The notes under the pieces: generated by a model | What the model was told of the DNA's origin: nothing | The model's database searches: none | What the model saw: the letters and a program-made list of their open reading frames with translations, nothing else | Shown here: one piece after another, positions 1,876-7,036 of the stretch | How the letters are laid out: each line of letters opens with the position of its first letter | How positions within the stretch are numbered: the first letter of the stretch is position 1 | NCBI GenBank assembly: GCA_027315255.1 | Contig: DAHUYL010000055.1 | Location: forward strand, 1 to 37,481 | Direction of reading: 5' to 3' | Source: Solirubrobacterales bacterium | GTDB lineage: Bacteria > Actinomycetota > Thermoleophilia > Solirubrobacterales > Solirubrobacteraceae | Length of the DNA stretch: 37,481 bases | Made by a program: the position numbers and the translations under genes

Positions 1876-2760
1876 TCAGCTGTCCGAGCCCCGGACGAGC
1901 GCGGCGAAGTCGCCGATCGGCCATCCGAGGTGCGCCAGCTTGTCGGGGTTGACGACCGACCTCACGCCCCGGACCTCGCCGCCGCCGATCTCGATCGCCA
2001 TCACGCCCAGCAGCCGTTCGTGCGCGTCGAGGATCAGCGCTCCGGCGCCGCCGTTGACCTCGACCGGGCGCCACGTCAAGCCCGGCGTGCGTGCGCGCAG
2101 TCGCGCCCATTCGGCGAGGGTCTGCGCGACCACGCTGCGTCCGTGCAGACTCTGCGCGAGCGCGGGCACCTTCCCGCCGCCATCGCCTGTCAGCTGGACG
2201 TCGTGTGCCAGCAGCGCCTCGAGGTCGGCGAGGTCACCGTTCTCGGCGGCGGCGAGAAATCGGGCTGCGAGCTGATCGCGCTCGGCCGGCGTCGTCTCGA
2301 AGCGCGGGCGTCGCTGTTCGACGTGCTTCCTCGCCCGGCTTGCGAGCTGGCGGACGTTGTCCTGGCTCTTGCCGATGACCGCGGCGATCTGCGCGTGGTC
2401 GTAGTCGAACACGTCGTGCAGGAGCAGCACCGCCCGCCGCTCCGGCGACAGGATCTCGAGCACCAGCAGCATCGCCATCGACAGCGAGTCGGCCATCTCG
2501 GCGTGCTCTGCCGGATCTTCGCCGCTGTCGGTGAGGATCGGCTCGGGCAGCCACTCGCCGACGTAGCTCACGCGCCGGGCACGGGCCGAGCGCAGCTCGT
2601 TGATCGCCAGCCGGGTGGTGACGGTCGAGACGAACGCGGGCGGCGAGTCGATCCGCCCGCCGTCCTCGAGCACCTGGTGGAGGCGCAGCAGCGCCTCCTG
2701 GACCACGTCCTCGGCCTCGGTGACGCTGCCGAGCATCCGGTAGGCGATCGCGAACGACAC
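1876..2760 (-). CDS. ECF41-type sigma factor with SnoaL-like C-terminal domain
   Basis: RNA polymerase sigma factor of the extracytoplasmic-function class. Region 2 (AYRMLGSVTEAEDVVQEA, residues 6-23) and region 4 (residues 99-147, with SPERRAVLLLHDVFDY) are followed by an NTF2/SnoaL-like extension. Three ECF41 hallmarks are present: WLPEP in the linker (70-74), DGGGK (193-197) and NPDKL (271-275). In that group the C-terminal domain modulates sigma activity in place of a separate anti-sigma factor. The gene follows the c-di-GMP enzyme by 23 bp on the same strand, so it is probably last in that operon. The usual genomic partner (carboxymuconolactone decarboxylase, oxidoreductase or epimerase) is absent here. 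The GTG at 2760 gives a protein lacking the first ~10 residues normally seen before region 2. The frame is open upstream but has no other standard start codon, so the start is uncertain. Confidence 0.88.
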   Translation of the reverse strand: MSFAIAYRMLGSVTEAEDVVQEALLRLHQVLEDGGRIDSPPAFVSTVTTRLAINELRSARARRVSYVGEWLPEPILTDSGEDPAEHAEMADSLSMAMLLVLEILSPERRAVLLLHDVFDYDHAQIAAVIGKSQDNVRQLASRARKHVEQRRPRFETTPAERDQLAARFLAAAENGDLADLEALLAHDVQLTGDGGGKVPALAQSLHGRSVVAQTLAEWARLRARTPGLTWRPVEVNGGAGALILDAHERLLGVMAIEIGGGEVRGVRSVVNPDKLAHLGWPIGDFAALVRGSDS

Positions 2761-2783: not shown

Positions 2784-5195
2784 TCAGCTCGGCTGCTCGA
2801 GCAGCTGGCGGATGTGGCCCAGGATCTCCGCGACCTGCTGGTCGTGGTCGATCGGCGCGTACCGCGGCCGGGGCGGCTCGATCGGCTCCGCGTCATCGGT
2901 GTCGCGATCGAGCTCCTCGAGGAACGTATCGACCACGGACGGGTCGAACTGATGGCCCGCTTCGCGGCGCAGCTCGGCGCGTGCCGCTTCCGCGTCGCGA
3001 CCCGACCGGTAGCAGCGGTCGGTGATGATCGCGTCGTAGGCATCGCAGACAGCCACGATCCGGGCGGCGAGTGGGATCTGCTCGCCCGACATGCGGTCCG
3101 GGTAGCCCGACCCGTCCCAGCGCTCGTGGCTCGAGCGGACGATCATCGCGACCGGCCGCAGCGCCGGCGCTGCACTGAGGATGCGGTCGCCGAGGATCGT
3201 GTGTTGGCGCATGAACTCCCACTCGTTCGGGTCGAGCGGGCCGGGCTTGGTGAGGATCGCGTCGGGAATCCCGACCTTGCCGATGTCGTGCAGCGCCGCG
3301 GCTCGCGCCAGCTCGTCGATCTCCTCGCCGCTCATGCCGAGCCGGCGCCCGACCCGGATCGCCAGGCGCTCGACCATCGTGGAATGGTCGGGGAGTCCGT
3401 TCTGCTTGGCGCGCAGGATGTGGACGAGCACGTCGTGTGCCTGCTCGCGGGCCCCTGAGCGACGTGCATGCTTGTGGCCGTACATGCGCTTGTCCGCGAC
3501 CTGCAGCGCGTAGTCGCCGCTCGTCGCCTCGTGCGGGAGCAGCACCGAGCCGCATGACGCCGTGATCGTGAACGTCTCGCTGCGCTCGGACAGCGCCACC
3601 AGGGCGGCGGTCGCGCTGCACTCGAGCTGCGCGTCGGCCGGCACCAGCACGCAGAACTCGTCACCGCCGAGCCGGAAGGCGGAGCCGTGCGGGGCGACCG
3701 CCGTCTCCAGCTTGCGCGCCAGCCGGGCGAGCAGCGCGTCGCCGGCGAGGTGGCCGAAGGTGTCGTTGTATGCCTTGAACCCGTCGAGGTCGAACAGCAT
3801 CAGCACGAGCGGCCGGATCTGCGAGGACTGCTCGAGCGCGGCGAGCTCCTCGGACAGCTTGCGGCGGTTGCCGAGCCGCGTCAGCGGGTCCGTGTGGGCC
3901 TGCTCTCGCAGCAGCTCGTGCGCGACGATCTCGTCCGCCGCGGTCTCCGCACGTTCGACCAGCCGCATCAGCAGCCGCTGCTCGTCGTCGCTGAACGGGC
4001 GGCCGCTGCGCGCGACCGACACCGCGCCGCGGGTCTCGCCGCCAACCCGGAACGGCACAGCCAGCGCCCAGGTGTCGTCGAGGTCGCGCTGACGGGGCTC
4101 GCCGGCCGATTTCGCCTCCCCGCACGCGGTTCGCACGAGCCGATCGTGCTCGGGCAGCCCGGCGCTCGAATCGACCGGCGCGGCCGTCGGAACGATCAGG
4201 GTGAGGTGCCCGGCGGCTGCGTCGAGCGCGTCGAGCGAGCCGTTCAGCAGCACGTCGGTCAGGGCCCGCAGCTCGAGCTTGGCGGCGAACGCCTCGCCGA
4301 GCCGGTGGACGGCGGCCTGCAGTCGCGTCCGCTGGCGAGCCACGACCGCGAGGCGCCGCTGCGCCTCGGTGATCCGGGCCGAGCGGTCGCGGTCGGCGAG
4401 GATCATCAGCGCGTTCAGCGGCACCAGCAGCAGCAGCTCGGTCGGGCGGTGACGCGCGGCGTCCGCCAGCAGCAGGCCCATCGGCGCGATGCAGGCGTCG
4501 ACCATCCAGACGGTCGCGATCACGCGGCCCTGGAGCTGGGGTGCGATCCCCATGATCAGCGACTCGCGCACCGTCGAGCCGGCGAGGTCGAACAGGCAGC
4601 CCGCGAAGAACGCGGCCACGTAGACGCCTACCTGAGGGAGGCCGCGGACGCCTGGCGCGAGCGCCAGGACGATCGCCGGGCCGAACGCGTGGAAGCCGTC
4701 GGGAATCGCGAACAGGAGCTCCTGGGTGGACCCGCGGCGCGCGAGCAACCGACCGAAGGACCCGAGCACGAGCCCGGCAGAGGCCAGCAGCGGCACAGCC
4801 AGCGGCGGCAGCAGGACCAGCATCGGCACCAGCACCAGGTAGGACGGCACGAAGTAACCGGCGCCGATCGGGAAGCGGACGGTGCGCGAGACGACCGCGT
4901 ACAGCACGACCAGCCCGCTGGCGAGCAGCAGGTTGGGGCGACCGTGTCCCAGTGCTGCGACCGCGGCCGGCACCGCCGCGATCAGGAATGCGAGGGCGCT
5001 CGAGCTCTCGACGAGCAGCTCACGCGGGCTTGCTCGGCGCGAGCGCGTGTCCCACGACTCCTCGAGCAGCCGCTCGACGGGGTCGCTGGCGAGCATCTCC
5101 TCGGCGGCGTCGCCGCGGCGTGAGAGCCGGCTGGCCGTACCGCCGACCAGCTCGAGGCGCGTCGGGCGCTCAGCCTCGGGTGTAGGGATCGACAT
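2784..5195 (-). CDS. Membrane GAF-GGDEF-HD-GYP bifunctional c-di-GMP enzyme
   Basis: Predicted to both make and degrade cyclic di-GMP. Residues ~65-275 form a hydrophobic multi-pass sensor region (MASE-like), ~295-430 look like a GAF domain, ~440-570 are a diguanylate cyclase and ~610-760 an HD-GYP phosphodiesterase. The cyclase signature is intact (RLGGDEF, GGDEF at 510-514). The HD pair lies in ALHDIGKVGIPD (H636, D637) and GYP at 697-699 within DGSGYPDRMSG. The inhibitory I-site RxxD expected just before GGDEF reads APHG, so product inhibition at the usual site is probably lost. The ATG at 5195 lies 26 bp inside the upstream secreted-protein gene, indicating coupled translation. The riboswitch leader at 5811-5887 heads this operon, so expression is likely to respond to the enzyme's own product. 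Confidence 0.93.
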   Translation of the reverse strand: MSIPTPEAERPTRLELVGGTASRLSRRGDAAEEMLASDPVERLLEESWDTRSRRASPRELLVESSSALAFLIAAVPAAVAALGHGRPNLLLASGLVVLYAVVSRTVRFPIGAGYFVPSYLVLVPMLVLLPPLAVPLLASAGLVLGSFGRLLARRGSTQELLFAIPDGFHAFGPAIVLALAPGVRGLPQVGVYVAAFFAGCLFDLAGSTVRESLIMGIAPQLQGRVIATVWMVDACIAPMGLLLADAARHRPTELLLLVPLNALMILADRDRSARITEAQRRLAVVARQRTRLQAAVHRLGEAFAAKLELRALTDVLLNGSLDALDAAAGHLTLIVPTAAPVDSSAGLPEHDRLVRTACGEAKSAGEPRQRDLDDTWALAVPFRVGGETRGAVSVARSGRPFSDDEQRLLMRLVERAETAADEIVAHELLREQAHTDPLTRLGNRRKLSEELAALEQSSQIRPLVLMLFDLDGFKAYNDTFGHLAGDALLARLARKLETAVAPHGSAFRLGGDEFCVLVPADAQLECSATAALVALSERSETFTITASCGSVLLPHEATSGDYALQVADKRMYGHKHARRSGAREQAHDVLVHILRAKQNGLPDHSTMVERLAIRVGRRLGMSGEEIDELARAAALHDIGKVGIPDAILTKPGPLDPNEWEFMRQHTILGDRILSAAPALRPVAMIVRSSHERWDGSGYPDRMSGEQIPLAARIVAVCDAYDAIITDRCYRSGRDAEAARAELRREAGHQFDPSVVDTFLEELDRDTDDAEPIEPPRPRYAPIDHDQQVAEILGHIRQLLEQPS

Positions 5196-5778
5196 AGAGG
5201 TCGGCGATCTGCACGGGACCGCCCTCGTTGACGAACTGGATCTGCACCATGTAGCTGGCGCCGTTCCAGGTCGGCAGCAGCGCCGCGAGGTTGAAGATGC
5301 CGGTCGGCGTCCATTGGTTGCCGGCGCCGGCCCAGCCGGTCGTCACGTCCTCCTGCTGACCCCAGGGGCTGGTCCAGATCACGTTGACGAGCATTCCGTA
5401 CCACCAGGCCGGGCCGTGCTGGCGGGCGTAGAAGCGGAAGGTCGGCGTCTGCGAGCTGACGCAGAACGGCGCCGAGGTCACCGACTGGCCGGGCGGGATC
5501 GTCAGCGCGTGGGGTGCGGGGCCGCCCTGACTGTTGTCGACGGTGGCGCCACCCAGCGACCACCCGGCGCCGCCGGTGCTGAAGTCACCACCGGGTGCGA
5601 GCGTGTACCAGGAAGGGTCGCCGAACTGCGAGAAGGCCTGCATCGCACCGGCGGTCGTAACGCTGCAGTTGGCGGTGGCGGCAGCGGCGACCGCTGGGAC
5701 CGCGGCGCTCAGCGCCAGCGCGCCCGCGGCGGCGCATGCGAAACGTCGGACCCTCGGCCGGCGGATCAGGTACGGCAT
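5170..5778 (-). CDS. Secreted protein of unknown function under c-di-GMP riboswitch control
   Basis: 202 residues. The N-terminus has an Arg-rich stretch followed by a hydrophobic Ala-rich core ending near AAAATANC, a convincing Sec-type signal peptide. The mature part is rich in Gly, Trp and beta-prone segments (PGGDFSTGGAGWSLGG, PTFRFYARQ, ADLYVDPYTRG). From memory this pattern recurs in secreted proteins of Solirubrobacterales and looks like a beta-sandwich, possibly carbohydrate-binding, but no function is established. The ATG at 5778 is preferred over the TTG directly before it because GGAGG lies 5 nt upstream of the ATG. The 3' end overlaps the next gene by 26 bp. It is the first gene after the riboswitch, so it is the primary target of that RNA. 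A surface or matrix role is inferred only from secretion and c-di-GMP control. Confidence 0.82.
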   Translation of the reverse strand: MPYLIRRPRVRRFACAAAGALALSAAVPAVAAAATANCSVTTAGAMQAFSQFGDPSWYTLAPGGDFSTGGAGWSLGGATVDNSQGGPAPHALTIPPGQSVTSAPFCVSSQTPTFRFYARQHGPAWWYGMLVNVIWTSPWGQQEDVTTGWAGAGNQWTPTGIFNLAALLPTWNGASYMVQIQFVNEGGPVQIADLYVDPYTRG

Positions 5779-5810
5779 CAAGACCTCCGTGTGTCGATGC
5801 TTCGCTTACC

Positions 5811-5887
5811 TTCCCTCGGCAGCTGGGCCGCCTCGTCCGAGACCCCTGGCTTTGCGGTCCCCGCCTCGCGACGGGTTTGCCCTTTCT
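5811..5887 (-). ncRNA. Class I cyclic di-GMP (GEMM) riboswitch aptamer
   Basis: Reading the minus strand, the conserved core is present in order: GGGCAAACC (5882-5874), a 6-bp hairpin capped by a GCGA GNRA tetraloop (5875-5870 pairing with 5865-5860), then CCGCAAAGCC (5857-5848). The GGC of the first block can pair with the GCC of the last to close P1. A second hairpin follows (GGCGGC-CCA-GCTGCC, 5832-5818, then GAGG), matching the tetraloop-receptor stem that ends GGTAGC...TTACCGA.GG in well-studied members. The remaining ~30 nt to the ATG carry the GGAGG of the secreted-protein gene. No clear terminator is visible, so control of translation initiation is the simpler reading. Confidence 0.9.
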
Positions 5888-5897
5888 GGTGCCCTGT

Positions 5898-5924
5898 GAA
5901 TCGGCACGCGGGCAGGGGTCTTTA
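5898..5924 (-). promoter_or_regulatory. Sigma-28 (FliA/WhiG)-like promoter upstream of the riboswitch
   Basis: On the minus strand TAAA (5924-5921) is followed by exactly 15 nt and then GCCGATTC (5905-5898). The sigma-28 consensus is TAAA-N15-GCCGATAA, so the -35, the spacing and six of eight -10 bases match. The predicted transcription start falls at about 5887-5891, a few bases before the first aptamer nucleotides, which independently supports both calls. No sigma-28 gene is in this window. Confidence 0.7.
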
Positions 5925-5925
5925 T

Positions 5926-5940
5926 CCGTAGGAACTACGG
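5926..5940. promoter_or_regulatory. Palindrome abutting the sigma-28-like promoter
   Basis: CCGTAG-GAA-CTACGG is a perfect 6-bp inverted repeat with a 3-nt centre, ending 1 bp before the TAAA -35 element of the minus-strand promoter. The position suits a dimeric activator site or an operator. It is also upstream of the plus-strand peptidase gene at 6071. The bound factor is unknown, and chance occurrence cannot be excluded. Confidence 0.4.
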
Positions 5941-6070
5941 CTCTTGGTAAGGGCGCGTTTGCCGCTGCGACGCGTGACCGGGTCTCACTTAGCGGGCTCT
6001 TGCACTCCTCGTCGCCGGCTCTTCGTCGACTGCGAGGTCGTTCTTACGGGCGCTGTCCACAGTTATCGGC

Positions 6071-7036
6071 ATGAGCCCGAGAATCCTGATCCCGGTGGTT
6101 CCGGCGCTTGCAAGCGTTGCGGTAGCCATACCGGCGTTGAAGGCGTCAGCATCACGGCCGCCGGCGTCGGAGCCGGCCGCCGCGGTGCCGGGGTCGGCGG
6201 CGGTCGCAGCGGCGGCGATCTCGGAGCCGACAGGGGTCAGTGAGAACTGGGCCGGCTATGAGGCGGCTTCGACGCGAGCGAGCGGATTCACCGCGGTCTC
6301 CGCCTCGTGGACTCAACCGGCCGCGAAATGCGTCGCCTCCTCGAGTGCGACGTATGCGGCGTTCTGGGTCGGGCTCGGCGGCGGCAGCGGCGGTTCGACC
6401 GCGCTCGAGCAGGCCGGCACCCAGGCCGACTGCACCGCCGGCGGCGCCGCCTACTACTACGCCTGGTACGAGCTCGTCCCCGCGGCGCCGGTCAGGCTGC
6501 CGTTGAAGGTCCGGGCCGGCGACCGGATCGATACGCGGGTGACGGTCCACGGCAGCGCGGTCACGATCCACGTGGCCGACCAGACGACCGGCAGGTCCGC
6601 GGACCGGACACTGACGATGAGCGATCCGGACACGTCCACCGCCGAGTGGATCGCGGAGGCGCCGTCGGCGTGCGCCGCCGGTGTCGCCGAGCAGTGCGCG
6701 CCGTTGCCGCTCACCGACTTCGGCTCGGTTCGGTTCCGCAACGCACATGCGACCGCGGGCGGTCACACCGGTGGGATCGGCGACTCCGCCTGGCAGACCC
6801 AGGCGATCGTGCTCGATGCGACCGGCGGCGCGGGCCGTTACGGCGGTCCGGGTGGCTACGGCGGTCCGGGTGGCTACGACGTTCCGGGTGGCTACGGCCC
6901 TCCCGGCGGCTACGGCACCTACGGCGCCGACCCGTCGTCCCTCACCGGCAGCGGTGCGACGCCGTCGGCGTTGAAGCTCGGCGGCACCGCGTTCACCGTC
7001 ACATACGGCTTCCAAGGAGGCACCTACGGCTACTGA
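6071..7036 (+). CDS. Secreted glutamic (G1/eqolisin-type) endopeptidase with GGY-repeat tail
   Basis: 321 residues. A signal peptide-like N-terminus and a low-complexity Ala/Pro stretch (~20-55) precede an eqolisin-type fold. Signatures visible are SENWAGYEA (57-65), ASWTQPAAKC, FWVGLGGG, the LEQAGT segment with candidate catalytic Gln Q114, YYAWYELVP and TAEWIAEAPS with candidate catalytic Glu E192. Family G1 enzymes use a Gln/Glu dyad and usually act in acid. The C-terminus has four tandem PGGY-type hexapeptides and ends in GTYGY, a tail outside the catalytic fold that could bind the wall or a polymer. No strong ribosome site precedes the ATG, and leader signals are weak. It is divergent from the c-di-GMP-controlled operon, so the two share an upstream region, but shared regulation is not shown. 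Confidence 0.85.
   Translation: MSPRILIPVVPALASVAVAIPALKASASRPPASEPAAAVPGSAAVAAAAISEPTGVSENWAGYEAASTRASGFTAVSASWTQPAAKCVASSSATYAAFWVGLGGGSGGSTALEQAGTQADCTAGGAAYYYAWYELVPAAPVRLPLKVRAGDRIDTRVTVHGSAVTIHVADQTTGRSADRTLTMSDPDTSTAEWIAEAPSACAAGVAEQCAPLPLTDFGSVRFRNAHATAGGHTGGIGDSAWQTQAIVLDATGGAGRYGGPGGYGGPGGYDVPGGYGPPGGYGTYGADPSSLTGSGATPSALKLGGTAFTVTYGFQGGTYGY
6842..6913 (+). repeat. Four tandem 18-bp repeats encoding the GGY tail
   Basis: Four consecutive 18-bp units encode GGPGGY, GGPGGY, DVPGGY and GPPGGY. Units 1 and 2 are identical at nucleotide level (6842-6859, 6860-6877), unit 3 differs in a few bases and unit 4 is the most diverged. Copy number could vary by slippage without breaking the frame. 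Confidence 0.9.

Follow-up and report, generated by a model that had tools for sequence, protein, structure and literature searches.

The riboswitch operon and its neighbors

We have analyzed a stretch of 37,481 nucleotides from the genome of a Solirubrobacterales bacterium (the window), in which a c-di-GMP-I (GEMM-I) riboswitch aptamer lies on the minus strand at 5815-5891. The full Rfam model RF01051 (positions 1-87) matches at 5891-5815 with 50.8 bits against a gathering score of 35, and E = 3.2e-7. This is the single gathering-level match obtained on searching the whole window against Rfam, and the only match to RF01051 at E ≤ 0.001 in the genome (4.31 Mb in 231 contigs, 92% complete). One further candidate (C87:45876-45951) was rejected; it scores 30.6 bits, below the cut-off, and the core blocks are absent by eye. 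The initial annotation had placed a class I c-di-GMP riboswitch on the minus strand at 5811-5887, and had proposed a search with the Rfam covariance model. That search, with its match above the gathering score, bears out the riboswitch and its place, the coordinates being displaced by four bases.

The leader between aptamer and start codon (5776-5814, minus strand) contains GGAGG at 5788-5784 and ATG at 5778-5776, the gap from the end of the aptamer to the ATG being 36 nt. The gene that follows (5170-5778, minus strand) encodes a protein of 202 amino acids with a signal-like N terminus, in agreement with the secreted-protein gene that had been proposed to lie behind the riboswitch. The protein belongs to no Pfam family, and relatives at E ≤ 0.001 were found in 36 of the 121 genomes of the family sample. 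Its structure, predicted from an alignment of three sequences, has a mean pLDDT of 55.8, which is too low for a fold search.

Next comes the gene for a membrane-type GGDEF/HD-GYP enzyme of up to 803 amino acids (2784-5195, minus strand), assigned by Pfam and by motifs, the start of which is uncertain. It had been described as a GAF-GGDEF-HD-GYP protein. The GGDEF (107 bits) and HD_5 (125 bits) domains are both above the Pfam cut-offs and both catalytic domains carry their motifs (GGDEF, HDIGK and GYP), but the GAF-like stretch reaches only 19.2-19.4 bits against cut-offs of 22.4 and 28.6. No inhibition site, which we take to have the form RxxD, was seen by eye ahead of GGDEF. An enzyme of this composition may on balance either make or break c-di-GMP. 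The reported overlap with the secreted-protein gene amounts to 26 bases, but it depends upon the assumed ATG of the enzyme. Homology of the N-terminal part to the two nearest relatives starts at residue 33, and thus translation may in reality begin downstream of that ATG.

Beginning 23 bases after the enzyme, and possibly cotranscribed with it, is a sigma-70-family (ECF-type) gene with a SnoaL-like tail (1876-2760, minus strand). Its Sigma70_r2 (46.5 bits) and r4_2 (51.1 bits) domains are above cut-off, with SnoaL_2 (25.4 bits) just under. No relative of this gene was found at 80 loci, L168 to L247. Divergent from the riboswitch, a Peptidase_A4 (glutamic peptidase) gene lies at 6071-7036 on the plus strand (118 bits), with a signal-like N terminus.

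Is this gene order found elsewhere? The nearest relatives of the enzyme in a scan of named genomes are in Solirubrobacterales, which would place the window in Thermoleophilia. At two loci of one related Solirubrobacterales MAG (L168 and L169, both included in the 80 above) the order aptamer, secreted protein, enzyme is kept. The secreted proteins are 42% and 29% identical to that of the window by tblastn, and the best segments of the enzymes 61% and 51% identical, respectively. The earlier view that the riboswitch is combined with a secreted output and an enzyme of c-di-GMP metabolism in one apparent transcription unit is supported. In genome G244, one locus (L043) carries the aptamer together with two secreted paralogues and a homologue of the enzyme, all in the same orientation, and at another (L042) the enzyme is convergent. 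Of the 80 enzyme-relative loci fetched, 17 were scanned, and 15 of these lack the aptamer; their enzymes align with the query from about residue 405 onward only, and look like paralogues. The aptamer is likewise absent at 18 of the 20 secreted-protein relatives scanned.

The aptamer has its core blocks and a first hairpin capped by GCGA (GNRA), both as annotated. The second hairpin had been called receptor-type. It is in fact short, and the CUAA and UAUG receptor consensus positions are deleted in the RF01051 alignment. With the c-di-GMP-I-GGC model RF03167 the aptamer scores 50.8 bits, under the cut-off of 59 and so outside the GGC subtype, and the outer helix is weak in that alignment. Loci L089, L101, L168 and L169 have aptamers above this cut-off. 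The low RF03167 score, the weak helix and the missing tetraloop-receptor letters could signify a degenerate aptamer, or one for a different ligand such as cGAMP. We regard this as very improbable, given that the RF01051 cut-off is exceeded with the core blocks present, that the aptamers retained at the same-order loci L168 and L169 score 63.3 and 62.0 bits with RF03167, and that there is a G at what we take to be the ligand-contacting position G20, which discriminates between c-di-GMP and cGAMP. The aptamer of the window is predicted, from its sequence, to bind c-di-GMP.

The level at which the RNA might act was approached through the expression platform. In a scan of 5650-6100 the minus strand proved free of terminator-like sites; the single such site is on the plus strand (6021-6037; 0.5 expected). 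Folding and analysis of pairing between aptamer and ribosome-binding site gave no demonstrable platform for the aptamer of the window, nor was any sequestering of its ribosome site seen. Of 141 aptamers examined, 25 are followed by a hairpin with a T-run no more than 220 nt away, 20 of these 25 being outside the class (Thermoleophilia), and a start codon lies within 26 nt of the aptamer at 25 of 60 examined. Actinomycetota riboswitches tend to translational platforms, according to a riboswitch survey (PMC12452182). Taking the lack of a minus-strand terminator and the nearness of start codons together with that reported tendency, translation is the likelier target of the window aptamer.

Some individual loci have suggestive structures. 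At L256 the 5′ arm of the hairpin is the 3′ end of the aptamer itself, like a termination-controlling ON switch, and on folding at L060, L061 and L042 the second-hairpin stretch is complementary to the ribosome site or the start codon region. The idea that the aptamer as a general rule sequesters the ribosome site was rejected; over 60 loci, 1927 of 2000 permutations were at least equally strong.

A putative sigma28-type promoter ahead of the aptamer

On the minus strand at 5924-5898 the sequence TAAAGACCCCTGCCCGCGTGCCGATTC agrees with the consensus for sigma28 (WhiG/FliA), its end lying six bases ahead of the aptamer. It comprises a -35 element TAAA (5924-5921), 15 nt, and a -10 element GCCGATTC (5905-5898). 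We have scored sites against TAAA-N14-16-GCCGATAA, allowing two mismatches at most, the rule used in PMC8325347. The site has 2 mismatches in 12 positions, and is thus counted as sigma28-type. The regulation by riboswitch alone that was previously envisaged is therefore incomplete.

The window contains a single copy of the exact core TAAAN14-16GCCGAT, against 0.03 expected. Across the genome the exact pattern is found at five sites, of which some may be chance, since the reversed pattern has three matches. The genes behind the five are the present operon, FliO, an HDOD-LuxR protein, a PAS-EAL protein and a GGDEF-EAL protein. With two mismatches there are two sites in the window, at 5924-5898 and 6089-6063, and of about 4000 random windows drawn from the same sequence, 2 contained one. 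The second (6063-6089, minus strand, 2 mismatches) lies 171 bases ahead of the aptamer on the strand of the riboswitch, overlapping the start of the divergent peptidase gene. A scan of 5650-6100 for the sigma70 consensus alone gave no sigma70-type promoter. Judged on such matches, the putative sigma28-type site is the sole recognizable promoter of the aptamer operon, and transcription from it would be expected to start at or beside the first base of the aptamer.

We have examined the recurrence of this pairing in two samples, in each of which the genomes are related and are not independent events. The class sample contained 71 loci: that of the window, the 30 best scorers, and 40 picked by place among the matches listed before the upstream DNA was inspected. 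L040 duplicates L026 and was left out of the later counts, giving 70 class aptamers. A site with ≤ 2 mismatches lies ahead of 21 of these, and with ≤ 3 mismatches ahead of 40. The corresponding frequencies are 0.64% and 2.9% for random windows of the same loci, and 0.5% and 5.3% for dinucleotide shuffles. At ≤ 2 mismatches, reading the region backwards gave 1/70 and the opposite strand 0/70. The second sample contained 68 aptamers from other Actinomycetota (29 returned, plus 39 by place among the matches listed). Here the counts rise to 43/68 and 54/68 for ≤ 2 and ≤ 3 mismatches, with 0.88% and 5.0% in random windows. The 43 sites span 15 labeled families, one of which (f26) supplies 12.

The same signal emerged with no consensus supplied. 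The most enriched upstream 6-mer is CCGATA, at 27 of 71 class loci (a set that includes L168 and L169, with L028 left out for its short upstream DNA) and at 33 of 68 outside. The next outside the class are CGATAA, CTAAAG and GCTAAA; within the class GTCTAG is second, followed by CGATAC and CTAAAG. At L168 and L169 a -10-like GCTCCGATAA or TGCCGATCC ends 7 bases ahead of each aptamer, the full sites having 4 and 3 mismatches.

A simpler model would have an ordinary promoter, with feedback through the riboswitch alone. Sigma28-type matches can arise by chance, and 30 of the 70 class aptamers (and 14 of the 68 from other Actinomycetota) have no site within 3 mismatches. Against this model, the position of the site and the enrichment of such sites ahead of aptamers far exceed chance, and the scan of 5650-6100 for the sigma70 consensus found nothing for an ordinary promoter to be. 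We therefore think it improbable for the present operon.

Two other elements were observed upstream of class aptamers. GTCCA, perhaps an activator site, is present in the 110 nt ahead of the aptamer at 25 of 71 loci (for example L045, L057 and L168), and in 18 of the 33 in the family set of the window (L168 and L169 included), against 10% of random 100-nt windows. In four class genomes an aptamer is preceded on its own strand by a sigma-70-family gene that scores below the FliA_WhiG cut-off, the gap being about 90-125 bases (G018:C10, G044:C140, G066:C47 and G094:C6); the third of these is locus L023, where the aptamer heads a pilin.

WhiG, FliA and RsiG

Which factor might read the promoter? 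Two FliA_WhiG factors are above cut-off in this genome, at 283 bits (WhiG) and 199.7 bits. The latter shares its contig, C87, with a flagellin-like gene, and FliO, behind another of the exact sites, is on the same contig. The consensus is moreover common to FliA and WhiG promoters, as stated in PMC8325347. FliA could therefore read the promoter here, making the operon a flagellar-class unit with the riboswitch as its single c-di-GMP input. Among the 21 genomes with a class site at ≤ 2 mismatches, however, flagellin was found in just four (this one, G160, G157 and G234), and the other 17 keep the arrangement without it. Since the 21 include several incomplete drafts, the absence of flagellin is no proof genome by genome. 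A FliA/WhiG factor above cut-off is present in 20 of the 21, the exception being G182, with a fragment of 142 amino acids. With flagellin missing from 17 of 21, WhiG is the likelier factor across site-bearing genomes generally. The present genome also encodes WhiG together with RsiG, and we consider the use of FliA here to be possible but rather unlikely. WhiG would then be the factor acting at the promoter of the window.

RsiG is a protein of 89 amino acids encoded on contig C206 (L156:1429-1698), matching PF22802 with 68.2 bits against a cut-off of 27, and PDB entries 6pfj and 7lq2-7lq4 at 7.8e-12 to 1.8e-8. It carries one E-x3-S-x2-R-x3-Q-x3-D motif, EIEISYKRRILHGKID, with H in place of Q. 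In PMC8325347, H is described as common in the first RsiG motif and suited to the same contact as Q, single-motif RsiG as occurring in Rubrobacteria and Thermoleophilia, and RsiG as holding WhiG when c-di-GMP is bound. In the class sample RsiG is found in 113 of 118 aptamer-bearing genomes (a hand count from two listings) compared to 122 of 181 others, giving 4e-10 by the Fisher test with kinship ignored. Outside the class, where the search covered aptamer-bearing genomes, it is found in 64 of 68.

The genes behind the aptamers were surveyed through 59 proteins, from 57 class loci plus L168 and L169; the gene starts were picked by script and some are perhaps wrong. Eleven match the pilin methylation motif, 11 match subtilase and 4 match CAP, and two glycosyl hydrolase families account for 6 and 5.

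Two proposed c-di-GMP sensors in series

An aptamer, a promoter-like site, the genes of the operon, WhiG and RsiG are thus found in one genome, and the pairing of site and aptamer recurs elsewhere. The reading that we favor, and hold to be reasonably probable, is that c-di-GMP is sensed twice in succession at this operon, first by RsiG-WhiG when transcription initiates and then by the aptamer in the RNA. WhiG would read the sigma28-type promoter, and at high c-di-GMP RsiG would sequester WhiG, such that transcription would take place when c-di-GMP is low. The transcript would open with the class I aptamer, tuning expression of the secreted protein and of the GGDEF/HD-GYP enzyme, probably at translation. 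The enzyme would alter c-di-GMP and may so close a loop. Given a sigma28/WhiG-type promoter and the hold of RsiG on WhiG, the feedback would bear on both transcription initiation and the RNA. One signal molecule therefore probably controls the genes of the operon twice, when the message is made and on the message itself. The outcome would depend upon the sign of the RNA switch: an OFF switch would create a double lock, and an ON switch a band-pass or a pulse.

Both parts of this arrangement, the WhiG-RsiG switch and the GEMM-I riboswitch, are already known; their pairing is, provisionally, new. Like other RF01051/RF03167 riboswitches, the aptamer has sequence and secondary structure scoring above the RF01051 cut-off and precedes a secreted-protein gene. 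It differs in that the second hairpin is short and lacks the usual receptor letters, in starting at a sigma28-type promoter, and in an operon that adds a c-di-GMP enzyme. A c-di-GMP-I riboswitch reportedly lies before the flgB operon of Clostridioides difficile, which is said to include the sigma28 gene. That too is a c-di-GMP riboswitch on motility genes, but there the RNA would govern the operon of the sigma28 gene, whereas here the promoter itself appears to be sigma28-type. The WhiG-RsiG-(c-di-GMP) switch of Rubrobacter and Streptomyces resembles the present case (PMC8325347) in that WhiG and a single-motif RsiG are encoded and WhiG-type promoters precede DGC/PDE genes and, at relatives, pilins. 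The transcript here adds a c-di-GMP aptamer, unlike that switch; the word riboswitch occurs zero times in the main text of that paper. A full-text literature search, with most subscription papers outside it, returned no titles that deal specifically with c-di-GMP riboswitches following promoters of WhiG or FliA type.

More speculatively, and with distinctly less confidence than we have in the circuit at this operon, the c-di-GMP-I riboswitch might across Actinomycetota form an inherent second step in the WhiG-RsiG regulon. Pilin, secreted-protein and c-di-GMP-enzyme genes would be transcribed only below the c-di-GMP level at which WhiG is held, and the far tighter-binding RNA would then set their translation. 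If this is true and the RNA is an ON switch, the result would be a band-pass or transition-pulse circuit on one messenger. Two known c-di-GMP effectors, RsiG-WhiG and GEMM-I, appear to be stacked on shared transcripts in many lineages of one phylum. This offers a testable two-threshold circuit and a candidate WhiG regulon in bacteria without flagellin, and gives the c-di-GMP riboswitches of Actinomycetota a concrete setting.
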